Source: Lysobacter terrestris
GTDB lineage: Bacteria > Pseudomonadota > Gammaproteobacteria > Xanthomonadales > Xanthomonadaceae
Length of the DNA stretch: 64,000 nt
Direction of reading: 5' to 3'
NCBI RefSeq assembly: GCF_014489475.1
Contig: NZ_CP060820.1
Location: 558,001 to 622,000 of the forward strand
Every line of letters starts with the position of its first letter. The first letter of the stretch is position 1. Below, in pieces: positions 29,843 through 32,672 of this stretch. A model generated the notes under the pieces. The model was given only the letters and a program-made list of their open reading frames with translations, made no database searches and was not told the DNA's origin. The position numbers were made by a program, and so were the translations under genes.

Positions 29843-29862
29843 CGCGTCGCCGTTGATCGAAC

Positions 29863-29891
29863 AAAAAAGCCCCGCGATGCGGGGCTTTTTT
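29863..29891. terminator. Terminator after the DUF3108 pair
   Basis: AAAAAAGCCCCGC, GAT, GCGGGGCTTTTTT: a perfect stem followed by a T-run, 20 bases after the DUF3108 stop. It is nearly identical to the hairpin at 32622-32650 on the far side of the accessory patch. Confidence 0.93.
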
Positions 29892-29914: not shown

Positions 29915-31149
29915 GATGGCGGTTTCAACTGGTCAATGCAACAGCCTGTCGATATCGCTCGATAGGCGTTTCAAAGCCCAGCGTCTTGCGTGGGCGTTCA
30001 TTCAAGCGTCTGGCCACCTCATTCAGCTGGGCCTGCGAGAATCCCGACACGTCGATCCCCTTGGGAAAGTACTGCCGCAGCAAGCCGTTGGTGTTCTCGT
30101 TTGATCCGCGCTGCCAAGGGCTCTGCGGATCGCAGAAGTAGACCTGGATGTCCGTGGCCAAGGTGAAGCGGCGATGGTCGGCCAGCTCCTTGCCGCGATC
30201 CCAGGTCAGCGACTGGTAGAGCTCGTTCGGCAACTGGCGTGCATGCTTGATCAGGGCGTCTACCACCGTCTTCGTGTCCTTACGCTCGACCTTAACCAGC
30301 ATGACGTACCGGGTGCTTCGCTCGACCAGCGTGGCGATCTGGCTATTGCCGCTACCGAACAACAGATCGCCTTCCCAATGGCCAGGAACGGCCCGATCCT
30401 CGACGTCGGCGGGTCGTTCGCGAATAGACACCGTATCGCTGATTCGACCGTGGTCCGCAGTCTTCTGCGTGTGGTGGCGGGAACGACGCATCGCCCGTGT
30501 ACGGCGTAGGTGTTCCAGCAGCTCTTTCTTCAGTGCGCCGCGGGACTGAATGAAGAGCGTGCGGTAGATCGTCTCGTGGGACACCTGGTAGGTCGCATCA
30601 TTTGGGTAGGTGAGCATCAGCCAGCCTGCAATCTGCTGAGGCGACCACTGCTGTTGCAGCTTGTCTGCCACCCTTTTCGCCAGCTTGGGATGCAGTGCCA
30701 GCTTACAAGTCTTTGGTCGCCGTGCCCGTTCCCACGCCGCTTGATCGGCATCACATGCCCGGTACCGCTCGGCGCCGCCATTGCGCTGGATCTCGCGGCT
30801 GATCGTTGATGGCGCCCGGCCCAACGCGGCCGCAATACAGCGAACGGATTGTCCGGAAGCGAGCGCCCTAGAAACCTGCTCCCGCTCGGCCAAGCTCAAA
30901 GCCCGTGCTGATCGGCGCCTAGGCGGCGGTCGGATGCCACCCGTCTCGGCGAGGATGCCGCGAACAGACGAGTGGTGCCGATCAAACAGCCGGGCGATCT
31001 GGTGTAGGGACTCCCCCTTCCGCCAACGGTCCCACATCAGGGCCTTCTGGGCATCGGTGTAGCGGATCCTGGTTCGGCGCTTCAATCGCAACACTCCTGC
31101 TGCTCAAGCAGCTAGCCATGTGTTGCGTCGATCGTATGAAACCGCCATC
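29915..31149. mobile_element. IS30-family insertion sequence, apparently intact
   Basis: A 1235-base element with 29-base imperfect terminal inverted repeats at 29915-29943 and 31121-31149. Both begin GATGGCGGTTTCA and both inner ends are GCAACA; 23 of 29 positions match. It encloses one transposase on the minus strand whose last codons lie in the left repeat. It starts 23 bases after a terminator. I see no convincing target duplication (left flank CTGC, right flank CAAA), which could mean a deletion beside the element or an older insertion. Confidence 0.88.
29925..31094 (-). CDS. IS30 family transposase
   Basis: 389 residues, full length for the family. The N-terminal helix-turn-helix region has YTDAQKALMWDRWRKGESLHQIARLF, and a second has CIAAALGRAPSTISREIQRN. 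The DDE catalytic core has HWEGDLLFG (first Asp), LTWDRGKELADH (second Asp) and PWQRGSNENTNGLLRQYFPKG (Glu). KTLGFETPIERY near the end is the common IS30 C-terminal box. No frameshift or stop interrupts it, so the element is probably active or recently active. Confidence 0.93.
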   Translation of the reverse strand: MLRLKRRTRIRYTDAQKALMWDRWRKGESLHQIARLFDRHHSSVRGILAETGGIRPPPRRRSARALSLAEREQVSRALASGQSVRCIAAALGRAPSTISREIQRNGGAERYRACDADQAAWERARRPKTCKLALHPKLAKRVADKLQQQWSPQQIAGWLMLTYPNDATYQVSHETIYRTLFIQSRGALKKELLEHLRRTRAMRRSRHHTQKTADHGRISDTVSIRERPADVEDRAVPGHWEGDLLFGSGNSQIATLVERSTRYVMLVKVERKDTKTVVDALIKHARQLPNELYQSLTWDRGKELADHRRFTLATDIQVYFCDPQSPWQRGSNENTNGLLRQYFPKGIDVSGFSQAQLNEVARRLNERPRKTLGFETPIERYRQAVALTS

Positions 31150-31275
31150 CAAAGCGGACATTGCGCGCGCTGCAGTAGTGATGCGTGGAAACTTTGGATT
31201 CAAGCCGCAACTCTCACTGGTCGCCACATCTTCACAATCCATCTACGTATTCCAATTTCAGCTGAATGCAGAATC

Positions 31276-31330: not shown

Positions 31331-31597
31331 ATGTTTCTGACCCAGCAGCATCTGAAGACGGCACGTACTCTCGGCGTTACGATCATCGCCCTGAGCCTTG
31401 GCGCCTGCGCCACCTATAAAGACGAGTTTGCAACGATCAACTCCCGACTCGATCAACTCGACGCGAAGGTGCAGGGCGCGGCCCAGAGCGCCGAATCCGC
31501 CAATCAGTCCGCGCAGCAGGCCAATCAACGGCTGGATCAAATGGAAAGCCGCGTCCAGCAGCTCGAAACGGCGCCGCGCCGCAAGCCGCGCGGTTAG
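31331..31597 (+). CDS. Braun lipoprotein (Lpp)-like outer-membrane lipoprotein
   Basis: 88 residues with a lipobox LGAC that places the lipidated Cys at residue 26. The mature 63-residue chain is one continuous heptad coil rich in Ala, Gln and Asn (INSRLDQLDAKVQG, then SAQQANQRLDQMESRVQQL). The ANQRLDQM segment corresponds to ANQRLDNM of E. coli Lpp, and the mature size is close to Lpp's 58 residues. Unlike Lpp, it does not end in the crosslinked lysine; it ends APRRKPRG. Good AAGGAG site. Probably a trimeric envelope spacer; peptidoglycan attachment is not proven. Confidence 0.82.
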   Translation: MFLTQQHLKTARTLGVTIIALSLGACATYKDEFATINSRLDQLDAKVQGAAQSAESANQSAQQANQRLDQMESRVQQLETAPRRKPRG

Positions 31598-31637
31598 TCG
31601 ATCTTGCACAATCCGCGACGAGCGGTTTGAACCTGGG

Positions 31638-31674
31638 ACTGGTGGCCTTTGCTGGCCACCGGTCTCTTTTCTTC
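31638..31674 (+). terminator. Terminator-like hairpin after the Lpp-like gene
   Basis: ACTGGTGGCC (31638-31647) pairs with GGCCACCGGT (31654-31663), one wobble pair, loop TTTGCT, followed by CTCTTTTCTTC. It lies about 40 bases after the Lpp-like stop. Confidence 0.7.
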
Positions 31675-31703
31675 ACCCAGTCTTCGTACTAAGGAACCTT
31701 CCC

Positions 31704-32432
31704 ATCCGTACGTGCATACACCCTGCGATTCGATCCGCTTATGGCGCGCTGGCGTTGGCGCTGGCGTTCGCCAGCTTCGGCGTGGCCAGCGCCGAGCATG
31801 CCGCCGCGCAACCGGAGGCCGCCGTCGACCAGCTTCCGCGAGGCCAGGAAGTGTCCGACACGGTGATTGAGCTCGCGGGGTGGGTTGTAGCAGCCAAGGA
31901 CAACCAAGGCTATCCGTTCGCGGTCATGGACAAGGCCGCCGCACAGATCCTGGTGTTCGGCGGCGACGGCCGGCTTCGCGGCGCGGCACCCGGGCTCTTT
32001 GGCTCGGCGATCGGCGATCACACGGCTCCCGGCATCGCCGGTCTCGCGCTTCGCGAGATTCCGGGCCGGGATCGCACGACGCCTGCTGGTCGTTTCGTGG
32101 GCGGTTTCGGTCCGTCAGTCGACGCTGGGCGCGTGCTGTGGGTGGACTACGATTCCGCGGTCTCCATCCACCCTACCGCTACCGGCGTTCCGGCCGAGAA
32201 ACGCGTCGAACGCCTTGCATCGCCTACGCCGGACGACAACCGCGTCACTCATGGCTGCATCAACGTCTCGCCCGAGTTTTACGAGCGGATCATCCTTCCG
32301 ACGTTCGAGCGGGGCGGAGTGTTCTACATCTTGCCGGATGCGGCGCCGATAGCGGAGACCTTCCCGGAGTTCGCGAAAAGTCGCGCGACTACGCAACGCA
32401 ACGATGGAGGGCGCGCACGGCCCGCCCGCTAA
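31704..32432 (+). CDS. L,D-transpeptidase-like (YkuD) exported protein, no canonical start codon
   Basis: 242 residues if started at ATC 31704. The catalytic motif is clear: VSIH (His156) then VTHGCINVS with the nucleophile Cys185, the HxxGCxN-type YkuD signature. YkuD enzymes make 3-3 peptidoglycan crosslinks or attach Lpp. A complete signal peptide (RTCIHPAIR, then a long Ala/Leu core, ending ASA) begins at 31707, and AAGGAA sits 7 bases before the ATC. No in-frame ATG, GTG or TTG precedes it usefully; TTG at 31752 would cut the signal peptide. Paired with an Lpp-like gene just upstream. Confidence 0.72.
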   Translation: MRTCIHPAIRSAYGALALALAFASFGVASAEHAAAQPEAAVDQLPRGQEVSDTVIELAGWVVAAKDNQGYPFAVMDKAAAQILVFGGDGRLRGAAPGLFGSAIGDHTAPGIAGLALREIPGRDRTTPAGRFVGGFGPSVDAGRVLWVDYDSAVSIHPTATGVPAEKRVERLASPTPDDNRVTHGCINVSPEFYERIILPTFERGGVFYILPDAAPIAETFPEFAKSRATTQRNDGGRARPAR

Positions 32433-32482: not shown

Positions 32483-32537
32483 GTCTGACAATTCATTCAA
32501 GCCGGCTTCGCGGCTCAGCTTGATTCTGGCGCTGGTC
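32483..32537 (+). other. Degenerate integron attC-like recombination site
   Basis: GTCTGAC (32483-32489) followed by AATTCATTCAAGCCG matches the R''/L'' half of chromosomal-integron attC sites. The centre GGCTTCGCGGCTCA and the return arm GCTTGATTCTGGCG complete the fold, since TCAAGC (32497-32502) pairs with GCTTGA (32518-32523). The right core site should read GTTRRRY but reads GCTGGTC, so this is a decayed or partial site. It follows the L,D-transpeptidase-like gene by about 50 bases, where a cassette attC would sit. Confidence 0.6.
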
Positions 32538-32621
32538 CATGTCCGCTTGTGGCCCGCATGCGGACGCTCTTCGCGCGACAACATTCAACCCGTGACTCCT
32601 TTCCACCGGGCAAGGTGAAAG

Positions 32622-32650
32622 AAAAGCCCCGCAATCGCGGGGCTTTTTTT
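32622..32650. terminator. Hairpin beyond murA, bidirectional terminator
   Basis: AAAAGCCCCGC, AATC, GCGGGGCTTTTTTT. On the minus strand it follows the murA stop by about 20 bases and reads into TTTTCTTTC. Its sequence nearly repeats the 29863-29891 terminator. Confidence 0.88.
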
Positions 32651-32672
32651 GGCATGACGACGGTCCGTCGCC

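Follow-up and report, generated by a model that had tools for sequence, protein, structure and literature searches.

A decayed attC site in Lysobacter terrestris that probably forms the tail of a mobile lpp-ldt gene unit

How does a lone attC-like site come to lie behind an L,D-transpeptidase-like gene, in a stretch of chromosome that contains no integrase gene? This question is raised by positions 32483-32537 of the window, by which we mean the whole stretch of 64,000 nucleotides that was analysed (558001-622000 of the contig). Orphan attC sites are usually ascribed to integron decay or to IntI insertion at genomic sites. The attC found here closes a gene unit that occurs at many chromosomal places in one family, yet the findings speak against precise IntI insertion. 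The site is probably a fossil, the tail of a mobile lpp-ldt unit that has spread through the family outside integrons.

The attC site and the integron of the same genome

The first-pass annotation had proposed an attC-like site at this position and a covariance-model search to verify it. A covariance model was compared with the genome, built in this analysis from 39 distinct aligned attC sites of the genome's own array and of relatives, with the orphan site excluded. It matched 32483-32537 on the forward strand over all 60 model positions with 37.3 bits (E 8.8e-6 per genome), while sites of the array reached up to 94.3 bits in the same search. The left portion of the site, GTCTGACAATTCATTCAAGC (32483-32502), occurs once in the window, where shuffled sequences are expected to contain none, and by BLAST it was about 83% identical to dozens of attC sites of the same genome, nearly all located at 2.537-2.580 Mb. 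The right core had been read as decayed from GTTRRRY, and indeed the conserved crossover triplet GTT is replaced by GCT, where relatives keep GTTGGTC; the apical stem is also short by 5 bp. Judged from its R'' core, the site would be inactive now. Neither single-strand folding of the DNA (z +1.15) nor folding of the bottom strand as RNA (z -0.5) set the site apart, and thus the case for an attC is made by homology and the covariance model. An Rfam search of the window gave no match. The site is a real attC and, as the only attC match in the 64-kb window with no integrase near it, by definition a SALIN (PMC9229058, PMC12690207).

The annotation remarked on the absence of an integrase, which is true of the window and not of the genome as a whole. 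A complete chromosomal integron, comprising a single intI and about 100 attC sites, is located on the same contig about 1.95 Mb from the window site. The intI gene (2580010-2580948) stands at the head of the attC array and is the only gene that exceeded the integron-integrase cut-off (TIGR02249, 479 bits). In the array, 97 attC motif matches were found by script at 2.537-2.580 Mb, with a typical spacing of 260-900 bp. The ldt gene is single-copy in this genome and is not in the array, and the attC variant of the window is common to unit copies of other genera, not to the array of its own genome.

Stray attC sites were also matched by the genome covariance search at 1365259 (52.8 bits), 2724767 (38.1 bits), 2864169 (27.3 bits), 2864630 (24.2 bits) and 1763457 (25.1 bits), with weaker stray matches besides. 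These attC-like sites off the main array lie in G000:C1:1364968-1365317, 1763457-1763525 and 2864169-2864681. The one at G000:C1:2724767-2725307 (L207:4768-5308) is a stray cassette consisting of an attC, a glyoxalase-like gene and a second weak attC, with a GNAT acetyltransferase gene upstream.

The locus, the unit and its two genes

The features of the locus are collected in Table 1. The gene order is two tandem genes, the first of which encodes a DUF3108 protein, followed by terminator T1, an IS30 element, lpp, a hairpin, ldt, attC, palindrome H1, terminator T2, and murA on the other strand. Both the IS30 element beside the site and the flanking terminators had been annotated from the window, and they were confirmed here, the former by its terminal repeats (29915-29927 and 31137-31149). 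In six relatives (G001, G002, G004, G005, G007 and G008), the DUF3108 gene and murA are adjacent without lpp, ldt or attC between them, the gap in the alignments being mostly 0-150 bp and G008 having a longer unrelated spacer. A covariance search of this empty locus in the six relatives found no attC; the comparison with sister species suggested in the annotation thus showed the attC sequence to be missing where the preceding gene is missing. These facts indicate that the unit is an insertion in this genome. In four of the six relatives (G001, G002, G005 and G007) the lpp-ldt pair is present at another place. IS30 covers the left end of the unit in this genome, which leaves the exact empty-site junction unreadable.

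IS30 was considered as the general mover of the unit and rejected, since it is intact at the window copy only and present as a fragment at one other. This fragment, 155 bp at 1716-1870 of L064 (G007:C51), is 94% identical to the window IS30 and lies just after another unit copy, on the opposite side of the unit from the IS30 of the window.

Table 1 Features of the locus, in window coordinates
Feature	Position	Strand	Evidence or remark
Terminator T1, after the DUF3108 gene	29859..29891	+	Folding; single terminator here in relatives
Insertion sequence of the IS30 family, directly beside the left end of the unit	29915..31149	-	13-bp terminal inverted repeats; HTH_38 and rve domains in the transposase
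Half of palindrome H2 (AAAGCGGACATTGCGCGC), the unit's conserved left portion	31150..31168	+	Exact or near match in better preserved copies
lpp, Lpp/OprI-like alanine-zipper lipoprotein gene	31331..31597	+	Sub-cut-off profile matches
Terminator-like hairpin (intrinsic) between lpp and ldt	31635..31668	+	-27.5 kcal/mol, z -6.2, then a T-rich run
ldt, L,D-transpeptidase-like gene	31701..32432	+	243 aa, signal peptide, HX25THGCIN motif, ATC start
attC left core R'	32483-32489	+	GTCTGAC
attC right core R''	32531-32537	+	GCTGGTC
Conserved stretch past attC with palindrome H1 (TGTCCGCTTGTGGCC...GCGGAC), probable right end of the unit	32538..32566	+	Identity and palindrome match
Terminator T2, after murA, near-copy of T1	32618..32653		Folding and comparison with relatives

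The unit reads, from left to right, palindrome H2, lpp, terminator, ldt, attC and palindrome H1. In better preserved copies a left-end palindrome, AGCGGACATTGCGCGC, resembles H1. Mean identity among the attC-bearing copies was 74% before the attC and 78% within it; over the 28 bp that follow it was 62%, and farther out 37%. Homology therefore runs about 28 bp past R'', and the identity of the attC is near that of the tail, which argues that the attC is carried along within a longer unit and gives no indication of additional constraint. The attC lies directly 3' of the open reading frame in cassette orientation in 13 copies. The G/TT boundary of R'' expected on both sides of a cassette was not seen, in view of the homology past R'' and of the left side, where no exact junction of GTTRRRY type was found. 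The candidate GTTAGTC at 31593-31599 was dismissed as a left cassette junction, as it overlaps the stop codon of lpp, i.e., a coding end, and is present in G015 too. The H palindrome could also be ruled out as a common dispersed repeat of these genomes: perfect copies numbered at most one per strand per genome, and matches were found in only 4 of 61 genomes.

The product of ldt scored 17.3 bits against PF03734 (YkuD), under the cut-off of 23.4. It shares the catalytic THGCIN motif with YkuD L,D-transpeptidases and differs from them in this low score and in a spacing from H to THGC that is longer than usual. The catalytic residues H157, H184, G185, C186 and N188 are invariant in 42 copies, and the top fold matches of a low-confidence predicted model (pLDDT 61.5) were all L,D-transpeptidases (E about 1e-3), so that membership of this family is indicated by motif and fold, with the score below the Pfam cut-off. 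A sequence search of solved structures returned nothing meaningful. The reading frame is full length in 93 of 96 copies with a median dN/dS of 0.25; on this sequence measure, ldt is under purifying selection. The lpp product scored 25.3 bits against NF040598 (cut-off 43) and 20.9 bits against PF04728 (LPP; cut-off 29.1). It resembles Lpp/OprI in its alanine zipper, but it remains below the cut-offs and ends in PRG in most copies, whereas Braun lipoprotein ends in a C-terminal lysine.

An unusual start had been pointed out for the gene before the attC, and this proved to be general. Among 93 alignable copies the start codon of ldt (31701-31703 in the window) is ATC in 78, ATT in 12 and ATA in one, never ATG, which makes 90 of 93 with ATC or ATT. 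The start was judged by its distance from the Shine-Dalgarno sequence (8 nt in 75 copies) and by the signal peptide that follows. In 28 copies no canonical start exists between the upstream in-frame stop and this codon; possible starts at a distance of a few codons do occur in some copies. Weak initiation downstream of a terminator would yield little transpeptidase relative to lipoprotein. The two genes probably act together at the envelope, where the transpeptidase, being weakly translated, would modify peptidoglycan or attach the abundant lipoprotein. The conserved ATC start, which appears to be new, is a separate oddity of translation control that is easily testable.

Copies of the unit across the family

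Relatives of ldt at E <= 1e-30 were found in 140 of 299 family genomes, nearly always as one copy, a minority of them being distant (about 40% identity). The comparison covered 96 close unit copies, the window counted as one, and these loci are a sample of the family. By our own count, based on tblastx of the 2-kb flanks only, the 96 copies lie in roughly 72-87 genomic contexts, i.e., 87 when a shared context requires both flanks to match, and about 72 when a match of one same-side flank is enough. Both flanks are common within eight groups comprising 17 loci. The control for gene-order conservation was one neighbouring pair, DUF3108-murA. On the ldt tree, genus labels change 51 times, against a minimum of 20 and a shuffled mean of 74. 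This tree is poorly resolved, with 17 of 92 inner branches well supported, and the argument for horizontal spread therefore rests mainly on context and on a modestly lower synonymous divergence of ldt than of murA (0.21-0.38 against 0.45-0.49 from the window copy, in four relatives), which is in line with transfer, not proof of it.

The covariance model detected an attC in the same orientation, 52-255 bp past the ldt stop, in 13 of the 96 copies (L101, L065, L096, L103, L154, the window, L111, L089, L104, L108, L071, L075 and L158), and L090 is likely a further one; in most of the 96 it recognised none. The best attC after ldt, in L101, scored 63.5 bits and keeps GTTGGTC. These sites share a private consensus, GTCTGAC...TTCTGGCGTTGGTC, that differs from the array of the L. 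terrestris genome, and the GTCTGAC and TTCTGGCG features, present in most attC-bearing copies, are absent from that array. In G018 the attC after ldt is followed by two weak attC matches 0.6-0.8 kb apart, and in G074 a unit copy lies between two attC sites. Among the unit copies, none was seen to form a clean cassette within an active array.

In 10 of the 96 copies the upstream flank shares direct repeats with the downstream one. Among pairs of mismatched loci this was so for 0.1%, which puts the rate about 100-fold above background; the same flank comparison of the 96 copies gave no inverted repeats. The repeats include 195 bp of the end of an ispH-like gene in G051 (gene identity by eye from the translation), 312 bp in L157 and about 280 bp in G002. 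T1 and T2, near-copies of the single terminator of relatives, may be a short example of such a repeat, although they are weak evidence for it, since terminators can also arise twice. Long direct repeats of neighbouring genes surround the unit in L068 (G051), L066 (G002), L109, L110, L157 and others.

Origin and movement of the unit

Since classical IntI insertion would give neither such repeats nor conserved sequence past R'', the long direct repeats at 10 of 96 copies suggest that the mover is probably something else. Repeats of this kind would be expected from template switching, or from the integration of DNA-uptake fragments that join by homology on one side and illegitimately on the other. 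An IntI-based alternative is that IntI cut a cassette out of the integron of this genome and placed it here, at a non-classical genomic site (attG). The complete integron and the other stray attC sites in the genome, the empty DUF3108/murA locus of relatives and the attG insertions on record (Loot et al. 2024, as cited in PMC12444791 and PMC12901181) are all compatible with it. However, ldt is single-copy and missing from the array, its attC variant belongs with copies of other genera, and homology continues past the crossover point where attG insertion should join the target right after the G of R''; we consider this origin unlikely. The annotation had also offered a remnant of a Xanthomonad sedentary integron formerly at this locus; the term Xanthomonad fits the type of attC and the genes present. 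An attC is present here, and cassettes away from the main platform occur in about half of Xanthomonas genomes (PMC12444791), but this reading is contradicted by the single attC, by the six relatives without one and by the intact integron elsewhere, and is very improbable.

Since attC sites are stem-loops and the hairpin directly follows ldt in 13 copies, it might be maintained for a different function, for instance to protect the 3' end of the ldt mRNA or to terminate its transcription. Its conservation does not exceed that of the neighbouring tail, its predicted structure is weak and it is unrecognisable in most copies, which makes such a role decidedly unlikely. Chance resemblance or convergence could be read from a score far under that of intact sites (37 against 94 bits), but it is barely credible given the genome-wide E value and the 12 other copies in which a homologous site follows the same gene.

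The fossil tail of a mobile lpp-ldt unit thus accounts best for the site. The unit probably descends from a two-gene integron cassette ending in a normally oriented attC; alternatively, its ancestor may have gained the attC by neighbouring one. The unit would then have spread across the family outside integrons, moving in the form of DNA fragments through homologous or illegitimate recombination and not through IntI. In this genome it would have entered the convergent DUF3108/murA intergenic region, and IS30 would have landed later at its left end. The attC itself is a passenger, as indicated by the homology past the crossover point, the many copies without a recognisable attC and the change from GTT to GCT here. 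The other proposal of the annotation, that a former gene cassette entered between terminators and left its tail here, is largely right: a conserved unit tail does lie between near-copy terminators at a locus empty in six relatives, but the cassette origin is one that we infer from the attC-bearing minority of copies.

A single attC without integrase is a known class, and the wandering unit carrying this one appears to be new. It has been reported that 115 SALINs are scattered in Shewanella genomes (PMC9229058; the term is also used in PMC12690207). The window site resembles them in having one attC, an integrase elsewhere in the genome and not nearby, and a gene directly upstream in cassette orientation; it differs in belonging to a unit at many family loci, in the homology past the crossover point and in the broken GTT core. 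The Xanthomonas CALINs off the main integron (PMC12444791) are likewise cassette material apart from intI within one family, but contain two or more attC sites and occupy fairly conserved positions, whereas the unit has one attC and hardly any common positions. Cassettes inserted at attG (Loot et al. 2024) also place a cassette-like gene at a non-integron chromosomal site, but no R'' junctions were seen here, and the long direct repeats at some copies are unexpected from the attG reaction as outlined in the papers citing it. The unit would lend itself to testing how cassette genes can leave integrons permanently and still keep moving.

A more specific and tentative possibility is that H2 and H1 delimit a wandering element, non-autonomous and as a rule present once per genome, which inserts at new chromosomal sites and leaves direct repeats of tens to about 300 bp of target DNA, with the attC as a fossil of a cassette past. 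Separately, arrays of paired 26-bp palindromes (TGTCCGCTT...AGCGGACA), often 59 bp apart and separating stretches of about 300-1900 bp, were observed in L201/L202 (G260:C1, about 3.111-3.119 Mb) and also in L203, L205 and L108. No paper was found on the MSAFDPKRT string that these arrays encode. The lpp-ldt unit lies inside one such array, and another array member is preceded by an apparent decayed attC half, as read by eye.
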